Shown in pieces: positions 4,533-61,643 of a stretch of 64,000 nucleotides of DNA. How positions within the stretch are numbered: position 1 is the first letter of the stretch; every line of letters starts with the position of its first letter. The notes beneath the pieces were generated by a model. That model worked only from the letters and a program-made list of their open reading frames with translations. It did no database searches and had not been told where the DNA came from. A program made the translations under genes and the position numbers. Source of the DNA: Arcobacter sp. (lineage in GTDB: Bacteria; Campylobacterota; Campylobacteria; Campylobacterales; Arcobacteraceae); contig PKUK01000009.1 in the NCBI GenBank assembly GCA_002869535.1, positions 124,001-188,000 on the forward strand. The letters run 5' to 3'.

Positions 4533-5180
4533 ATGCATACTATAAAAAGATTAATTGAGGGAAATGAAAAGTTTAGAAAAGAATATTTCCCATATTTTGA
4601 AAAAGAGTTAAGAAAAAGTGTTAAAGAAGGGCAAAAGCCAGAAGTCCTTTTTATAGGATGTTCAGATAGTAGAGTTACTCCTGATTTGATGCTAGATTCA
4701 CAACCTGGTGATATGTTTATTATGAGAAATGTTGGTAACTTCGTACCTCCATATAAACTTGATGAAGACTTTCATGGAACTGCTGCAGCAATTGAGTTTG
4801 CCGTTTCTGTACTTCACGTAAAAAACATTATAGTTTGTGGTCATTCTCACTGTGGAGCATGTAAAGCTTTGTATGATGATATTGTGGATGATCCAACAAT
4901 GATTCATGTAAAAGTATGGCTAAAACTTGGAGAAAAAGCTAAAGAGCGAACTCTAAAAAATCAAAAATTTACAACCAAAGAAGGTATGTATAGAGCAACA
5001 GAGAGAAACTCTATACGACATCAACTTGATAATTTATTAACATATCCAGAAGTTAAAAAAAGAGTTGAAACTAATTAACTTATGATTCATGGTTGGTATT
5101 ACGACATAGAGACTGGAAATATCGATTATTATGATAAAAGTCAAGATAATTTTAAACCATTGAAGGAGTTTTTAAAATGA
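4533..5180 (+). pseudogene. can: Beta-class carbonic anhydrase, interrupted by an in-frame TAA
   Basis: Beta-carbonic anhydrase (CO2 + water to bicarbonate), cytoplasmic zinc enzyme. The zinc and active-site motifs are intact: CSDSR (about residues 43-47), RNVGNFVPP, and CGHSHCGAC. At codon 182 (5076-5078) there is a TAA, yet the same frame continues with LMIHGWYYDIETGNIDYYD, the usual C-terminal end of the family, and stops at 5178-5180 with a 4-base ATGA overlap with the next gene. That overlap and the full length of 215 residues support one original gene. The truncated product keeps all zinc ligands but loses the last beta-strand and C-terminal tail, so activity is uncertain. A GAA to TAA change would explain it. 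Confidence 0.85.
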
Positions 5181-5496: not shown

Positions 5497-6558
5497 ATGA
5501 ATATTATAGATAAATTAGAAAGAAATGAAAGACTAAATTACGAAGAAGCAATAGGTCTATATGATTTAGACCTATTTGTTTTAGGTAAATATGCAAATAA
5601 AATTAGAGAAGAAAAACATGGTAGAAAAAGCTACTTTAATATAAATAGACATATAAATCCCACAAATATTTGTAAAGATGTATGTCAGTTTTGTGCATAT
5701 AGTGCAAGTAGAAAAAACCCAAAACCTTATACTCTAAAACACGAAGAGATTTTAGACGTAGTTAAAAACTCATCATTAAATGGTATAAAAGAGGTTCATA
5801 TAGTCTCTGCTCATAATCCCCAAACTGGATTAGAGTGGTACTTAGAAATTTTCAAAAAGATTAAAACTGCCTATCCACAAATTCATGTAAAAGCATTAAC
5901 AGCAGCAGAAATTCATTTTTTAAGCGAAGAGTATAATAAAAGCTATGAAGAGATTATTGATCTTATGATTGAGTATGGTGTTGATTCTATGCAAGGTGGT
6001 GGAGCTGAAATCTTTGATGAAAAAGTTCGAAAGAAAATCTGTGGAGGAAAGGTTACTTAACAACAATGGCTTGATATCCATGAACTTTGGCACAAAAAAG
6101 GTAAACAGAGTAATGCAACAATGTTATTTGGACATGTGGAGTCAAGAGAAAATAGAATAGACCATATTTTAAGACTTAGAGACTTACAAGACAAAACTAG
6201 TGGATTTAACGCATTTATTCCATTAGTTTACCAAAAAGAGAATAACTTTTTAAAAGTAAAAGATTTTCTTACAGGACAAGAGATACTAAAAACAATGGCA
6301 ATCTCAAGAATTTTGCTTGATAATATTTCTCATATAAAAGCATATTGGGTAACTTCAACTGTAAAACTAGCTCTTGTAGCTCAAGAGTTTGGAGCAAATG
6401 ATTTAGATGGAACTATAGAAAAAGAGTCTATTCAAAGTGCAGCGGGAGCAGCAAGTGCAAATGGTCTTCCTATTGGTTCATTTGTTGATTTGATTAAAAA
6501 CTCTGGATTTACTCCCGTTGAGAGAGATTCAGTTTATAACGAATTAAAAGTTTGGTAA
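5497..6558 (+). pseudogene. mqnE: Aminofutalosine synthase (menaquinone synthesis), interrupted by an in-frame TAA
   Basis: Radical-SAM enzyme MqnE of the futalosine route to menaquinone, converting the chorismate-derived MqnA product and SAM to aminofutalosine. The cluster motif CKDVCQFC (CxxxCxxC) is visible at about residues 60-67, and VHIVSAHNPQTGLEWY and GVDSMQGGGAEIF are family features. Codon 188 (6058-6060) is TAA; the same frame resumes with QQWLDIHELWHKKG and runs to 6558 for a total of 353 residues, the normal length. The break lies inside the barrel, so the product would be inactive unless read through. The futalosine route is the usual quinone pathway in Campylobacterota, which makes loss surprising. 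TCA to TAA is the simplest origin. The related MqnC is less likely but not excluded. Confidence 0.85.
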
Positions 6559-39490: not shown

Positions 39491-40831
39491 ATGAAATTTT
39501 CAACACAAAATCCTGAGAAATCATTGCATCTAGTTAGTCTTGGTTGTACAAAAAACCTTGTTGACTCAGAAATTATGCTTGGGAAATTAAGAGATTATAA
39601 AATATCAAATGAGGTAGAGACTTCTGATGTAATTATTGTAAATACTTGCGGGTTTATTGATAGTGCAAAAGAATAGAGTATTAATACAATTTTAAACCTG
39701 CATGATCTTAGAAAAAAAGATTCAGTTTTAGTAATGGCTGGGTGTTTAAGTGAAAGATATAAAGAACAACTTCAAAAAGAGTTACCTGAGATTGATATTT
39801 TTACAGGAGTTGGAGATTATGATAAGATAGATACACTTGTAAATGAAAAAAGAAGTGGTTTTTCAGATGAAGTATTTTTATTAAATGAGACAAATGATAG
39901 AGTAATCACTGGTTCAAATTATCATGCTTATATAAAACTATCAGAAGGGTGTAATCAAGTTTGTTCTTTTTGTGCTATTCCATCTTTTAAAGGAAAACTT
40001 CACTCAAGAACTTTAGAGTCTTTAGTAAAAGAAGTTAAAAACTTGGTGGCACAAGGTTTTTATGATTTTTCTTTTGTTTCACAAGATAGTTCATCATTTT
40101 TAAGGGATTTAGATATTAATAATGGATTAGAACAATTAATTAGTGAAGTTGAAAAAATAGATGGAATCAAAAGTGCTAGAATATTATATCTTTATCCATC
40201 AACTACAACTCTGTCACTTATAAAAAAAATCGAAAACTCAAAAGTATTTGAAAACTATTTTGATATGCCACTACAACACGTAAGCTCTAACATGCTTAAA
40301 ATCATGAAAAGAGGTAAAGGTATAGAAAAACTCAATGAGCTTATGAGAGCCATGAGAGATACTCCTAAATCCTTTGTAAGAACTACATTTATCGTAGGAC
40401 ATCCAGGTGAAACAGAAAATGACTTTAACGAACTATGCTCTTATGTTGAAGAGTATGGATTTGAAAGAGCAAATGTATTTTCATATTCTGATGAAGAGGG
40501 AACAACTGCCTATGATAATACAAATAAGATAGAGCAAAAGACAATTGATGCTAGAGCTGATATTTTAGGTGAAATAATCCAAAGAAAAACTTTAGAATCC
40601 CTAGAAAATGAAGTTGGAAAAATAGTAGATGTTTATATTGATGGACAAAGTGATGAGCATGAATATTTACTAAGTGCTAGAAAGACTATTTGGGCACCTG
40701 AGATTGACGGAGAAATTTATATCAATGATAAAGAGATAAACACAGAATTAACTGTTGGAAAGACTTATCAAGTAAGAATCACTGAATTAGTTGGAGATAA
40801 ACTCATTGGAACGGCAATTAAAGAGCTTTAA
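39491..40831 (+). pseudogene. rimO: Ribosomal protein S12 methylthiotransferase RimO, interrupted by an in-frame TAG
   Basis: RimO is the radical-SAM enzyme that methylthiolates Asp89 of ribosomal protein S12. Auxiliary-cluster cysteines are in [25 protein letters not shown] and MAGCLSERY; the SAM cluster is CNQVCSFC with CAIPSFKGKLHSR after it; a TRAM domain ends the protein. Codon 62 (39674-39676) is TAG, between the second and third auxiliary cysteines, with the frame otherwise intact to 40831 (446 residues in all). Homologues have Glu or Gln here, so GAG to TAG or CAG to TAG would explain it. The upstream fragment is useless, and an internal start at 39734 would lack two cluster ligands. 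tilS overlaps in TAATG. Confidence 0.9.

Positions 40832-53860: not shown

Positions 53861-53861
<1 letters not shown>
52848..53861 (-). CDS. pyrC: Dihydroorotase
   Basis: PyrC closes carbamoyl aspartate to dihydroorotate in pyrimidine synthesis. Metal-binding motifs are DMHLHLRDGEML (HxH), KLYPAGITTNSENGV, LCVHGETN, MEHITTKDAVEL, ITLHHLLITLDD and GSDSAPHPKHKKE with the catalytic Asp. 337 residues fits the class II type. The start is GTG at 53861, overlapping the TAG of glnB in TAGTG, so it is coupled to a nitrogen-control gene, which may tie carbamoyl phosphate use to nitrogen status. Confidence 0.94.
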
Positions 53862-54220
<359 letters not shown>

Positions 54221-54278
54221 TTATATTCTAACAAAATAAATTTAAATAAATCTAATCATTCTATAACTAATAATTAGA

Positions 54279-55463
54279 TTAAAATGCTCGTTTGAATTCT
54301 GGATATGCTTCAAGTCCACACTCTTCAACATCCAATCCTTGCATCTCTTCGTCTTTTTCTGCTCTTAGTGGTACTATTTTATTAATTATAAATAATACTA
54401 CAAATGATGTAACAAAAGCAAAAGTTCCAACAACAAGTACACCTTTTAATTGTCCAAGTAAGGTAATATCATCTCCATTTGATGCAAAAATACCAACAGC
54501 AATTGTTCCCCAAATACCATTTAATAAGTGAACAGATAGAGCCCCTACTGGATCATCAAGTTTTAATTTATCAAAAAAGCTTACACCAAAGATAACTAAA
54601 ACACCACCAATTGCACCTATTAAGATTGGAGTATAAATATCATAAAGATCAGGACCTGCAGTAATTGCAACCAATCCACCTAATGCTCCATTTAATACCA
54701 TAGTAATATCAAGTCTGTTATATCTAAAATGCATATATAAACCAACTAAAATAGCTCCTGCTAAACCTGCTGTATTAGTATTCATAATAGTTAAAGCTAC
54801 CGCATCTGCACTCTCTTTTGAAGCAATTGAACCTACACTTCCACCATTGAATCCAAACCAACCAATCCATAAAAGAAATGCCCCTAAAGTTACAAGAGGG
54901 ATATTTGAAGCTGGAATAACCCGAACCCCACCCTCTTTTGGATATCTTCCTCGTCTAGCTCCTATAATAATTATAGCTGCAAGTAGTGCCCAACCACCAG
55001 TACTATGAATAACAGTAGATCCTGCTAAATCATACATAGTTAAATCTAAAACAGTGCCTTCTAGCATATCGCTTCCCCAAGACCAATTTACAACTATAGG
55101 ATAAATTAATGCACCCATTATTATAGTAAATAGTCCAAGTGGTAACACCTTTGCTCTTTCACTAACTCCTCCAGACATTATATTAATTACCTTACCAACA
55201 AATGCCATTTGGAATAAAAATGCAGCCCATTTACTCATACTATCACTTCCAAAATCACCAAAAGCAATAGAGTACCCAACTAATAAAAATGCCAAAGAGG
55301 CTACTGCATAAATCATAGTATTAACCATTAGCACTGCACTTACATTTTTAGTACGTACTAATCCCGCTTCCAACATAGCAAAACCTGGAACCATAAAAAT
55401 GATTAAAGTCATTGCAAAAATTGCAAAAAATGTATCAATTACATAAGAGATGTTTGCATCCAT
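54279..55463 (-). CDS. amt: Ammonium transporter Amt (intact copy)
   Basis: Trimeric ammonium channel, 394 residues with eleven expected membrane segments. Typical stretches are MVPGFAMLEAGLVRTKN, LAGSTVIHSTGGWALL (twin-histidine region: His in VIHS), ASNIPLVTLGAFLLWIGWFGFNGGS, DVVLNGALGGLVAITAG-like VLNGALGGLVAITAGPD, and DDPVGALSVHLLNGIWG with the second pore histidine. The WIGWFGFNGG block shows the Gly that has become TGA in the neighbouring amtB. It is followed by its own P-II gene and pyrC. Confidence 0.95.
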   Translation of the reverse strand: MDANISYVIDTFFAIFAMTLIIFMVPGFAMLEAGLVRTKNVSAVLMVNTMIYAVASLAFLLVGYSIAFGDFGSDSMSKWAAFLFQMAFVGKVINIMSGGVSERAKVLPLGLFTIIMGALIYPIVVNWSWGSDMLEGTVLDLTMYDLAGSTVIHSTGGWALLAAIIIIGARRGRYPKEGGVRVIPASNIPLVTLGAFLLWIGWFGFNGGSVGSIASKESADAVALTIMNTNTAGLAGAILVGLYMHFRYNRLDITMVLNGALGGLVAITAGPDLYDIYTPILIGAIGGVLVIFGVSFFDKLKLDDPVGALSVHLLNGIWGTIAVGIFASNGDDITLLGQLKGVLVVGTFAFVTSFVVLFIINKIVPLRAEKDEEMQGLDVEECGLEAYPEFKRAF

Positions 55464-55582
55464 ACTTATCCTTATTATTTAATTTGGATTATTATATATT
55501 ATCTCTATAATTTTTGATTTATTTTGATGGTTGTTTTTTATACATAATTTTTGGGTGTTTTTTAGACTGATAGAATATCTTG

Positions 55583-55670
55583 TATAATTAATATACAAAA
55601 ACTAAAGAGTGCTTAAGAGGCGCACTCTTTGTTTTAATAAAAAAAGACAAATAAAAGTATTGTCTTTTTT
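55583..55670 (+). ncRNA. Candidate small RNA between the two amt/P-II pairs
   Basis: On the plus strand a TGTATAAT -10 box (55583-55588) is followed, after the expected start near 55595, by hairpin AAAGAGTGC (55604-55612) with GCACTCTTT (55622-55630), and then by a second hairpin (55641-55650 with 55660-55669) ending in a run of T. That makes a possible transcript of about 75 bases with a terminator. The second hairpin is bidirectional and also ends the glnK transcript from the right. A simple pair of terminators without a small RNA is the main alternative. Confidence 0.35.
55641..55669. terminator. Bidirectional terminator after glnK
   Basis: AAAAAGACAA (55641-55650) pairs with TTGTCTTTTT (55660-55669) around 9 bases, with A and T runs on both sides. 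It lies 15 bases beyond the glnK stop and separates the two amt/P-II units. Confidence 0.75.
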
Positions 55671-55684
55671 ATATAAAATAAGAA

Positions 55685-56026
<342 letters not shown>

Positions 56027-56066
56027 TTATTCCTTTTAGTAATATTTCAAAAAAATATATCTTTTT

Positions 56067-56090
56067 AAAAGGTAAGTCTCCTTACCTTTT
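56067..56090 (-). terminator. 10-bp hairpin between amtB and glnK
   Basis: AAAAGGTAAG (56067-56076) and CTTACCTTTT (56081-56090) are exact complements with a 4-base loop. On the minus strand the stem ends in TTTT and is followed by AAAAAG, so it may reduce read-through or protect the amtB mRNA end. Confidence 0.55.
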
Positions 56091-56098
56091 ATCACCAT

Positions 56099-57313
56099 TT
56101 ACGCTCTTTTAAACTCAGGATAAGCTTCAAGTCCAGTTTCATGGATATCTAAACCTTGTACTTCAACTTCTTCGCTTACTCTTAATCCAACAATTAAGTC
56201 TAAGATTTTCCATACGATAAATGAAGATATGAAAACAAATGCACCAATAACAACGATACCTTTAACTTGTGCCATAATTGTAACATCTGGATTGAAGATA
56301 CCAACAGCTAATGTTCCCCAGATACCTGCAACTAAGTGAACTGATAATGCACCAACTGGATCATCAATTTTCATTTTATCAAACATAGGTACAGCAAATA
56401 CTACTAAAGCACCACCAACAATACCTTCAATAAATGCAACCATCATTCCTAAATCTGGTCCTGCAGTACAAGATACAAGTCCTGCTAAAGCACCATTTAA
56501 AACCATAGTTAAATCAACTTTTTTATAGATAAGTTGAGTTAAAATTGCAGCCATAATAGCCCCAGCTGCTGCTGCCATATTTGTATCAGCAATAACCATT
56601 GCAATGCCATCAATATCACCTTTTGAACCTAGTGCTAATTGAGAACCACCATTAAATCCAAACCATCACATCCATAAAATGAATGTACCAAGTGTAGCTA
56701 ATGTTAAGTTTGAACCAGGGATTGGTCTAACTCCACCATCTTTACCATATTTACCTTTTCTAGCTCCTAAGATAAGAACACCAGCTAAAGCAGCCCATCC
56801 ACCAACAGAGTGAACAATAGTTGAACCAGCAAAATCAGAGAAACCAGCAATAATTCCACCTAATTCACTTCCACCCCATGTCCAGTGACCTTGTAGTGGA
56901 TAAATAACACCACTTAAAACAACAACAAATATTAAAAATGGCCATAATTTCATTCTTTCAGCAATTGATCCTGAGATAACAGAAGCAGCAGTTGCAACGA
57001 ATACAACTTGGAAGAAGAAATCAGCAGCAGCAGGATATGCAGCATCAGCAGCTGTTTCCATACTAATTGTTGAGAAGCTTCCCATGATAGATCCACCATC
57101 TCTATACATTAAGTTATAACCTACAAAGTAATACATAATACAAGATATTGCAAATAAAGCAATATTTTTTGTTAATACAGTAGCATTATTCTTACTTCTT
57201 GTTAAACCAGATTCTAACATAGCGAACCCAGCTGCCATCCACATAACTAAGATTCCCATCATGATAAATAAGAACCCATCAAGAACATATTTTACATCAG
57301 CAAAATTTTCCAT
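56099..57313 (-). pseudogene. amtB: Ammonium transporter AmtB, interrupted by an in-frame TGA
   Basis: A 404-residue ammonium channel with one stop. Family features: AAGFAMLESGLTRSKN, FAGSTIVHSVGGWAALAG (pore histidine), GSNLTLATLGTFILWM, and after the break WFGFNGGSQLA, MVLNGALAGLVSCTAGPD and DDPVGALSVHLVAGIWG. Codon 216 (56668-56666) is TGA exactly where the family has Gly in LWxGWFGFNGG, as in the intact copy beside it, so GGA to TGA is the origin. The cut protein would lose half the membrane helices. I use the ATG at 57313, which has an AAAAGG site, and not the in-frame TTG at 57328. A second full amt gene lies downstream, so loss would be tolerated. Confidence 0.93.
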
Positions 57314-57429
57314 TTTTTTCCTTTTCAAAATTGATATGAGAAATTATAAAATAAAAAATAAACTTCTACTAGACATACTCTGTATAAATAATATAAAATT
57401 ATTATTTTTTTTACTTTTCATTAAAATGT

Positions 57430-58362: not shown

Positions 58363-59112
58363 ATGCAAGAATTTATAGCTGTTTCAGAGATATCAAAAGA
58401 GATAAAAAACTCAGCAGAACTTCTTAAGTCATTAGATATTAATGCATTAATAACAGGTCAAAGAGGCGTTGGTAAGAAAAGTTTAGCGAAATATATTACA
58501 CAAGATTCAAATATTTATAGTGCAAAATCACTACAAGATGATATAACAGATAATGTAATCTCAATTTCTAATTGTACGGTTATTATAGAGAATATTGATG
58601 AGATAACAAATATTGATTTATTTATAAATTGGGTTGAGAATAACTCTATAAAAGTCATAGCAACATCAAAAAAAGATGATTTAAATGAGAAACTATCAGA
58701 TTTATTTTCAATAACTATAGATATTCCACCATTAGATACTAGAAAAGAAGATATAAAACCCTTAGCAAATAAATTTGCAAAAGAGGCTAGTGATATTTTA
58801 GGAATAGAAGATAAACCCTCTAAACTTATAGTAAATACAAGCCAAAATGCTTATAGTTTGAGAAAATCTATATTCTTTTCATACCTTTTTGAATCAATTG
58901 GTGAAAATGAGATTATGATGCTTTTAGAAAACTATATACTTGATAATATGGAAGGTGAAAATACTTACAGAGATTTTGTATATCTATTTGAAGCACCACT
59001 TCTTAGAGCTTCACAAAAGAAGTTTAAGTCCCAAGTTCAAATGGCTAAAAACCTAGGATTAAATAGAATAACCTTAAGAAAAAAGTTAGAGTTACATAAA
59101 GAATTAATATGA
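58363..59112 (+). CDS. Degenerate NtrC-like AAA protein with Fis-type DNA-binding domain
   Basis: A 249-residue protein built like the core of a sigma-54 activator, but reduced. A P-loop GQRGVGKKSLAKYI is at about residues 32-45, a Walker B-like IIENIDEI at about 73-80, and the C-terminal Fis-type helix-turn-helix ends it (MAKNLGLNRITLRKKLELH). The GAFTGA loop that touches sigma-54 is missing, as is any receiver domain. It could act as a repressor or as a regulator with the main sigma factor. It is between a PDC-like membrane protein and glnD, with an ATGA overlap with glnD. Confidence 0.75.
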   Translation: MQEFIAVSEISKEIKNSAELLKSLDINALITGQRGVGKKSLAKYITQDSNIYSAKSLQDDITDNVISISNCTVIIENIDEITNIDLFINWVENNSIKVIATSKKDDLNEKLSDLFSITIDIPPLDTRKEDIKPLANKFAKEASDILGIEDKPSKLIVNTSQNAYSLRKSIFFSYLFESIGENEIMMLLENYILDNMEGENTYRDFVYLFEAPLLRASQKKFKSQVQMAKNLGLNRITLRKKLELHKELI

Positions 59113-61643
59113 TAACTGAGATGAATATTGAAGTTGAAGAACTTATTGAAAAAAATGCAAATGATTTTCAAATAGCAAAAGTATTTAAAAAATATATAAA
59201 AGAGTATGTTGACTCAATTGATACAAGTATTGATACAAATGGGGGAAAAGATTTTTTTGTAAAACATACAAAAAATACAGATATGTTTTTAATATCTCTT
59301 TATAAATATATCTTGCGAAAAAACTTTGGCTCTTACCAACCAATGAGTACTGCGATTCCCATTTCACTAATTGCTTTGGGCTCTTATGGAAGAGAACAAT
59401 TATGTATTTATTCTGATATTGACCTAATGATACTTTATGAAGATATCAAGGGTTACAATACAAAAGATATGATACAAGAGTTTATTACTTTAGCTTGGGA
59501 TTGTGGTCTAAAGTTAGGTTCTAGAGTACATGAACTAAAAGATGTAGCGGATAGTGTAAAAGAGGATGTTACAATTAAAACAGCTCTTATTGAATAAAGA
59601 TTAATTTATGGTTCAAAATATTTATGGTTTGGTTTTGAAAATGTCTTAAATAGAATTAGAAAAACAGACCAACTGCAATTTGTACTAGAAAAAAAACAAG
59701 AACATAAAGATAGACTGTTAAAATATCCATTGAAAATGGAACCAAACATAAAAGATGGTTATGGTGGAATGAGAGAGGCTAATATGGTCTTTTGGATTGC
59801 TAATATTGTCTTTGGTGTAACAAAACTAAAATATCTTATGGATAAAGAGTTTACAGAAGAAGAGTACAAAAAATATAGAACTTCTTTAGAATATATCTTT
59901 CAAGTAAGAAATCACTTACATAATATTGCAAAGAAAAAACTAGATACAGTAAACTTTGATATATTGCCAGAGTTAAGTAGCAAACTTGGATTTAAACATA
60001 CTCCAAGAAAAACAAAAGAGACTCAAGCAATGAATAAAATCTTTGAGTCTTTACATAATATTCATTTTTTTACAAATATTTTAACTAAAAAGTTTACAAG
60101 GGCAATCGAATTTAAAAATGAAAATTATGATTTAGTTAGAAAACATAGGTTTAAAAAAAATCTTTTTATCTATGAAGGAAAACTTTATACCTCATACTTT
60201 AACAAACCAAAAACGCTAACTGCATTTTTAAAAGAACTTATATCTTTGCCAATAGAAGTTGAAAGGTATGACCAGTCATACGTTTATTATGCAAGTAAAA
60301 CTATCTTGCCACATAAGCAAACAAAAGAGCACAAACAACTATTAAAAAGATTGCTTTACAAAGAGTCTTTATACGCGATTATGAAGTTACTTTATAATGC
60401 AAGAATATTTCAAACAATATTCCCTATTACTAAAAAAATGATAAATCAACCACAGTTTGATGGATACCATGAACTTCCTGTTGATGTTCATTCAATAAAA
60501 ACACTAAAACATCTAGCAGATATAAAAGATGACTTTGTAAAAGAGTTATATGATAAGTTTGACAAAACAGAACAATCTTTAGTAAAAATAGCAACTTTCT
60601 TTCATGATGTAGGTAAAGGAAGACATAATGATCACCATGTTTCAGGGGAAAAACTATTTAGAAATATGGCAAATGGTCTTGACTTTAAATCTGAACATGT
60701 TCAAATTATTGCAAAACTTATAAGATATCACAATATGATGAGTAAGGTAGCAACTAGTGAAGATATCTACTCAGAAAAAATCATTAGAAATTTTGCAGGA
60801 TTGGTTTTAAATAAGAAATTCCTAGATATGCTATTTGTTTTAACATATGCAGATATATCAGCTGTTGGTAAAAATGTTTATAAGAGTTCAACTTCTGCAT
60901 TATTAAAAGAGTTATATAACCAAACTATGTATGCCTTTGAAGATGTAACACTTTTAACAGAGAGTTCAAGAAGAGTTAGAAAAATCAATAGTATTAAAAA
61001 ACTAAAACAGTATATTGAACTTCCTTCATTAATTAAGAAAAAAATATCTTACATCTCTTCAAATCAGATATTTTTACAACTTAAGGCTGCTGATATTTTA
61101 GACTTGGTAATAAAAGCAAAAGATGTAGAAACATACACTTATAAAATATTAAATGATAGCCAGTTAACAATAAGAATTATTAGAAAAATCCCTCTTAACT
61201 TAGGTTATTTACTGGGAAGACTAGAGTTTTTAGATATCTCTACAATGAATATTTTTAAGCTATTTGATGATAAAAAATGTTTTGAAATTACATTTACAGA
61301 AAAAGTCACAGAGGGTGATATTTTACATATTGAAGATATTATAAAATCCTCTTTTGATATGAGTAAGAAACTAAATATTAAAAAACCAAATATTCTAAAA
61401 AATGAAGTAGAAATAGATTGTAATCACACCTCTTATTTGGCAAGTATGAAAATCAACTCTACCAACCAAAAAGGTTTATTAGCATATATTACTAAAATTT
61501 TTGATGATTTTAATGTGGAAATTGAGAGTGCAAAACTATCTTCAACTAAAAGAAAAGTTAGAGATTTATTCTTGATTGAAAAGAATGGAAACTTTTGTAT
61601 AAATACAGATAAAATCGTAGATATAATTAGTAGTGGCGAATAG
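59109..61643 (+). pseudogene. glnD: Bifunctional uridylyltransferase/uridylyl-removing enzyme GlnD, interrupted by an in-frame TAA
   Basis: GlnD modifies P-II proteins in response to glutamine. The nucleotidyltransferase site is GSYGREQLCIYSDIDLMILYED (residues about 93-114), the HD domain has FFHDVGKGRHNDHHVSGEK, and two ACT domains close the protein, the last near ASMKINSTNQKGLLAYITKIFDDF. Codon 163 (59595-59597) is TAA in KTALIE-stop-RLIYGSKYL; the frame continues cleanly to 61643 (844 residues in all). TCA to TAA or GAA to TAA would explain it. The truncated protein keeps the catalytic Asp residues but not the rest of the domain or the HD and ACT parts. P-II uridylylation would be lost if the stop is real. 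Confidence 0.9.

Follow-up and report, generated by a model that had tools for sequence, protein, structure and literature searches.

An in-frame TAA in mqnE of an Arcobacter genome assembly belongs to a genome-wide set of G:C>T:A stops and is most likely a consensus error

The DNA analysed, called the window below, is a stretch of 64 000 nucleotides (contig C4, positions 124001–188000) from an Arcobacter sp. assembly (G000; 2.68 Mb in 12 contigs). Nearly the whole window is syntenic with two other genomes of the genus, G001 and G002. It contains mqnE, the gene for aminofutalosine synthase, which is full length and in frame apart from a single TAA at codon 188; the presence of this stop in the deposited sequence, reported in an earlier note on this DNA, was confirmed. 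When the frame was read through (with the stop as X), the protein scored 654.4 bits against a cut-off of 560 for NF006276 and 487 against 434.55 for TIGR03700. It is thus a full-length MqnE above both curated cut-offs and differs from these equivalog families in its reading frame, which is interrupted by the one TAA. The two halves match positions 1–187 and 189–353 of the MqnE profile, without loss. The positions of mqnE, its stop and four further interrupted genes are given in Table 1.

Table 1. Positions in the window of mqnE and of the in-frame stops
Feature	Position	Strand	Remarks
mqnE (aminofutalosine synthase)	5497-6558	+	353-codon frame, interrupted at codon 188; above NF006276/TIGR03700 cut-offs when read through; uninterrupted, with conserved synteny, in G001 and G002
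In-frame TAA, mqnE	6058-6060	+	Ser in each of the 57 other sequences; a single C>A change (G:C>T:A) would give it
In-frame TAA, carbonic anhydrase (frame 4533-5171 and on)	5076-5078	+	Glu in G001 and G002; G:C>T:A class
In-frame TAG, rimO (39491-40831)	39674-39676	+	Glu in G001 and G002; G:C>T:A class
In-frame TGA, ammonium transporter gene amt (57328-56099)	56666-56668	-	Gly in G001 and G002; G:C>T:A class
In-frame TAA, glnD (59109-61643)	59595-59597	+	Ser in G001 and G002; G:C>T:A class

In 57 of the 57 other sequences covering codon 188, drawn from Campylobacterota loci and the congeners G001 and G002, it encodes serine. Nearly all of them use TCN, and the nearest relatives TCA, so that a single C>A change yields the stop. 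The ratio pN/pS, computed against G001, is 0.088 before the stop and 0.101 after it; codon-level constraint is therefore equal on both sides, and the sequence downstream of the stop has not decayed.

Comparison of genes with G001 and G002 identified the four other interrupted genes of the window, namely those for carbonic anhydrase, RimO, an ammonium transporter and GlnD. All five stops fit a G>T or C>A change (Glu to TAA, Ser to TAA, Glu to TAG, Gly to TGA and Ser to TAA). The ammonium-transporter region (window 53861-57328) is duplicated, with two copies of a 112-amino acid protein and two amt-like genes that align mutually; the same duplication is present in G001.

From what is established for Campylobacterota, mqnE is probably essential. 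The earlier note had regarded futalosine as the only expected route to menaquinone, and the genome agrees with it: two MqnA/MqnD-family genes are present, both intact, MqnC is intact and encoded on contig C9, and no match to MenD above the cut-off was found in the genome. The matches to MenD all lie far below the cut-off and presumably represent other ThDP enzymes; the classical Men pathway was rejected on these grounds. The note had also allowed for a second intact mqnE. The genome was searched for one and none was found, so that mqnE is single-copy; a radical-SAM match on C9, considered as a candidate, proved to be the intact mqnC. In Campylobacter jejuni, as cited in PMC3229698, menaquinone is used, ubiquinone is not, and menaquinone is made via futalosine.

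The occurrence of such stops beyond the window was analysed by comparing G001 genes with 269 G000 genes (72 689 codons) from contig C4 and from portions of C5 and C8; within each gene, the 30 codons at the start and the 15 at the end were left out. Eighteen interior nonsense codons were found, and no frameshifts or split-frame genes among the 269. Sixteen of the 18 fit G:C>T:A (GAA, GAG, GGN and TCN origins), a class that accounts for 25.8% (0.258) of the single-step routes to a stop (P = 3e-8); 14 of these 16 are reached from the G001 codon in one step and 2 have one more third-position difference. When only single-step stops were considered, 14 out of 16 belonged to the class (P = 4e-7). Routes through A>T or T>A, though abundant, account for a single stop, which lies near a C terminus. 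The G:C>T:A stops include rpoB E954* (rpoB is single-copy in G000), rplE E137*, rplA E58*, lipA S287*, nuoL S447* and both G337* and E414* in mnmG. Two stops lie outside the class, at codon 871 of 894 in aceE and at Y116 of ygiQ; the latter (L155 near 3002, on C5) is a TAG in place of Tyr, with no single-step G:C>T:A route from the G001 codon. A single transversion class unaccompanied by indels is what a G:C>T:A damage artefact would leave.

The congeners do not carry this load. No interior nonsense codon was found in G002, either in 85 genes compared with G001 queries or in 59 compared with window queries. The reverse scan, with G000 queries against 277 G001 genes, gave four interior nonsense codons, three of them within one 119-amino acid ORF of doubtful reality and none a single-step G:C>T:A change.

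We then compared nonsense with missense changes on C4. G:C>T:A nonsense occurs at 11 of 6988 possible sites (0.0016), and rare radical G:C>T:A missense (D>Y, G>V, G>C, S>Y, P>H, R>I and W>L, classes picked once the amino-acid pairs had been inspected) at 22 of 12 481 (0.0018), as against 3 of 12 623 in the reverse direction (Fisher P = 8e-5). Nonsense being as frequent per site as radical missense, the changes appear to be unfiltered by selection; the stops fall in all classes of gene at roughly a single rate per site, those for ribosomal proteins and RNA polymerase included. This lack of a selection imprint, with essential genes hit, is as expected of an artefact. The sum of all nonsynonymous changes (410 G:C>T:A versus 421 reverse) has no excess, lying ~2.5 SD below the roughly 60 extra changes predicted by the unselected rate, and is dominated by background divergence; the G:C>T:A excess is clear only in classes with a low background. 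Background divergence likewise made a comparison of total G>T/C>A counts with their reverse uninformative as a test. The rRNA genes could not serve as a test of unselected damage, the single 16S gene having a 16-N gap and GC sites being too few. This only 16S rRNA gene (G000:C7:277306-278706; L179) is ~116 bases short and lies at the 16-N scaffold gap, which points to scaffolding from short reads. Events cluster modestly at the kilobase scale (10 gaps below 1.5 kb versus 4.8 expected, P ~0.01), which fits locally thin or patchy coverage; the strand coherence of neighbouring events is suggestive only (P = 0.12).

RNA polymerase beta subunit, L5 and MqnE are indispensable to a haploid cell, and the bases that interrupt their genes are therefore most likely errors of the consensus; no living cell would carry these stops as its genotype. 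We consider it highly probable that the mqnE TAA is a false consensus base, one of a genome-wide G:C>T:A set absent from the living organism, and judge codon 188 accordingly. By extrapolation, there would be ~1300 wrong bases genome-wide, ~180 of them nonsense. Artefacts of the G>T/C>A kind are known to arise from oxidised guanine, 8-oxoG being read as T (for example PMC12390751). The stops resemble the artefacts treated there in being of one mutation class, without indels and unrelated to function or selection; they differ in that such artefacts are usually low-frequency reads outvoted in the consensus, whereas here they stand in the assembled consensus. Oxidised guanine pairing with A, so that G is read as T, may have been the source, if the input DNA was damaged or very small in amount and the affected sites were represented by too few independent templates for the consensus to correct the error. 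Against a consensus error, the 12 contigs and a completeness of 99.96% suggest that coverage was good, and at good coverage oxidation errors are normally outvoted; the technical route to the error is uncertain on this account. The lack of an overall G:C>T:A excess among nonsynonymous changes, the choice of the low-background classes after inspection and the two stops outside the class also weigh against it. A literature search on the assembly itself found nothing. Our reading as most likely a consensus error comes from the assembled sequence and not from the reads.

The same spectrum is that of 8-oxoG mutagenesis, and one has to weigh a lineage that recently became a G:C>T:A hypermutator, for instance by lacking 8-oxoG repair, and in which the stops are real, mqnE is lost and menaquinone comes from elsewhere. 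Lines deficient in MutY or MutM resemble G000 in their G:C>T:A spectrum, with nonsense arising from GAA, GAG, GGA and TCA. Fpg/MutM is absent from G000, G001 and G002, and in all three the MutY model has only endonuclease III (Nth)-like matches, none above the cut-off; the genus appears to be without the usual GO repair enzymes, and its GO repair to be weak. This absence is, however, common to congeners without a nonsense load and not private to G000, so that a private loss of MutY or Fpg was rejected as the cause of a mutator phenotype. Moreover, real mutator lines must keep rpoB and ribosomal genes, whereas here these are hit at about the common rate. Since rpoB, rplE, rplA, nuoL and mqnE cannot all be null in a viable haploid cell, and nonsense as frequent per site as radical missense means no selection at all, we regard such a lineage as improbable.

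Even less probable is that a mutant tRNA suppresses the stops, or that they serve as sense codons, with proteins made at full length. The intact and constrained mqnE sequence downstream of the stop would agree with it. All three stop codons occur, however, and they replace Glu, Ser and Gly, which no single tRNA explains; ordinary genes still terminate at these stops; and Lys>TAA, Gln>TAA and Leu>TAA would also be expected, yet are almost absent despite many opportunities. Among the ARAGORN-reported tRNAs at the loci examined (46 RF00005 matches less a few, including C5:607629, C5:411859, C1:95581 and C3:5040) all have standard sense anticodons and none has a stop-reading one. With three stops involved, three residues replaced and no stop-reading tRNA among those examined, recoding can for practical purposes be excluded. 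We give a similarly small chance to the stops being present in cells and tolerated genome-wide, rpoB included, through general read-through or through polyploidy with different 8-oxoG mutations in each chromosome copy. The least probable reading is that mqnE is a genuine single pseudogene in an organism that relies on quinone uptake or on another partner; there is one clear nonsense codon with neither a second mqnE nor menD, but mqnC, mqnA and mqnD are kept intact, no decay follows the stop, and the same class of event occurs across the genome, in rpoB as well.

We return to a consensus error as the preferred explanation. The earlier interpretation was right as to the sole visible route and the single copy, and mqnE was well chosen as a gene on which to decide whether the stops are real, the outcome being that they are false. 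Its further proposal, that menaquinone synthesis is lost, finds no support: stops of this class also lie in rpoB, rplE, rplA and nuoL, and neither a second copy nor quinone uptake nor read-through is required to explain the mqnE stop. The search for other mqn genes that it called for yielded those described above.

The finding is an artefact, of value as a warning and as an easy check of quality. G000 passes quality checks (completeness 99.96%, contamination 0.67%), and it seems to carry ~180 false stops and more than 1000 false bases, mostly missense and likely to go unnoticed. It costs little to ask whether the nonsense codons of an assembly are all of one transversion class and fall in rpoB or ribosomal genes, a question that standard checks leave out. 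Anyone arguing from G000 for the loss of a gene or pathway, menaquinone synthesis included, would be mistaken; a menaquinone defect should not be inferred from the mqnE stop, and the organism itself would have an intact mqnE and futalosine pathway.
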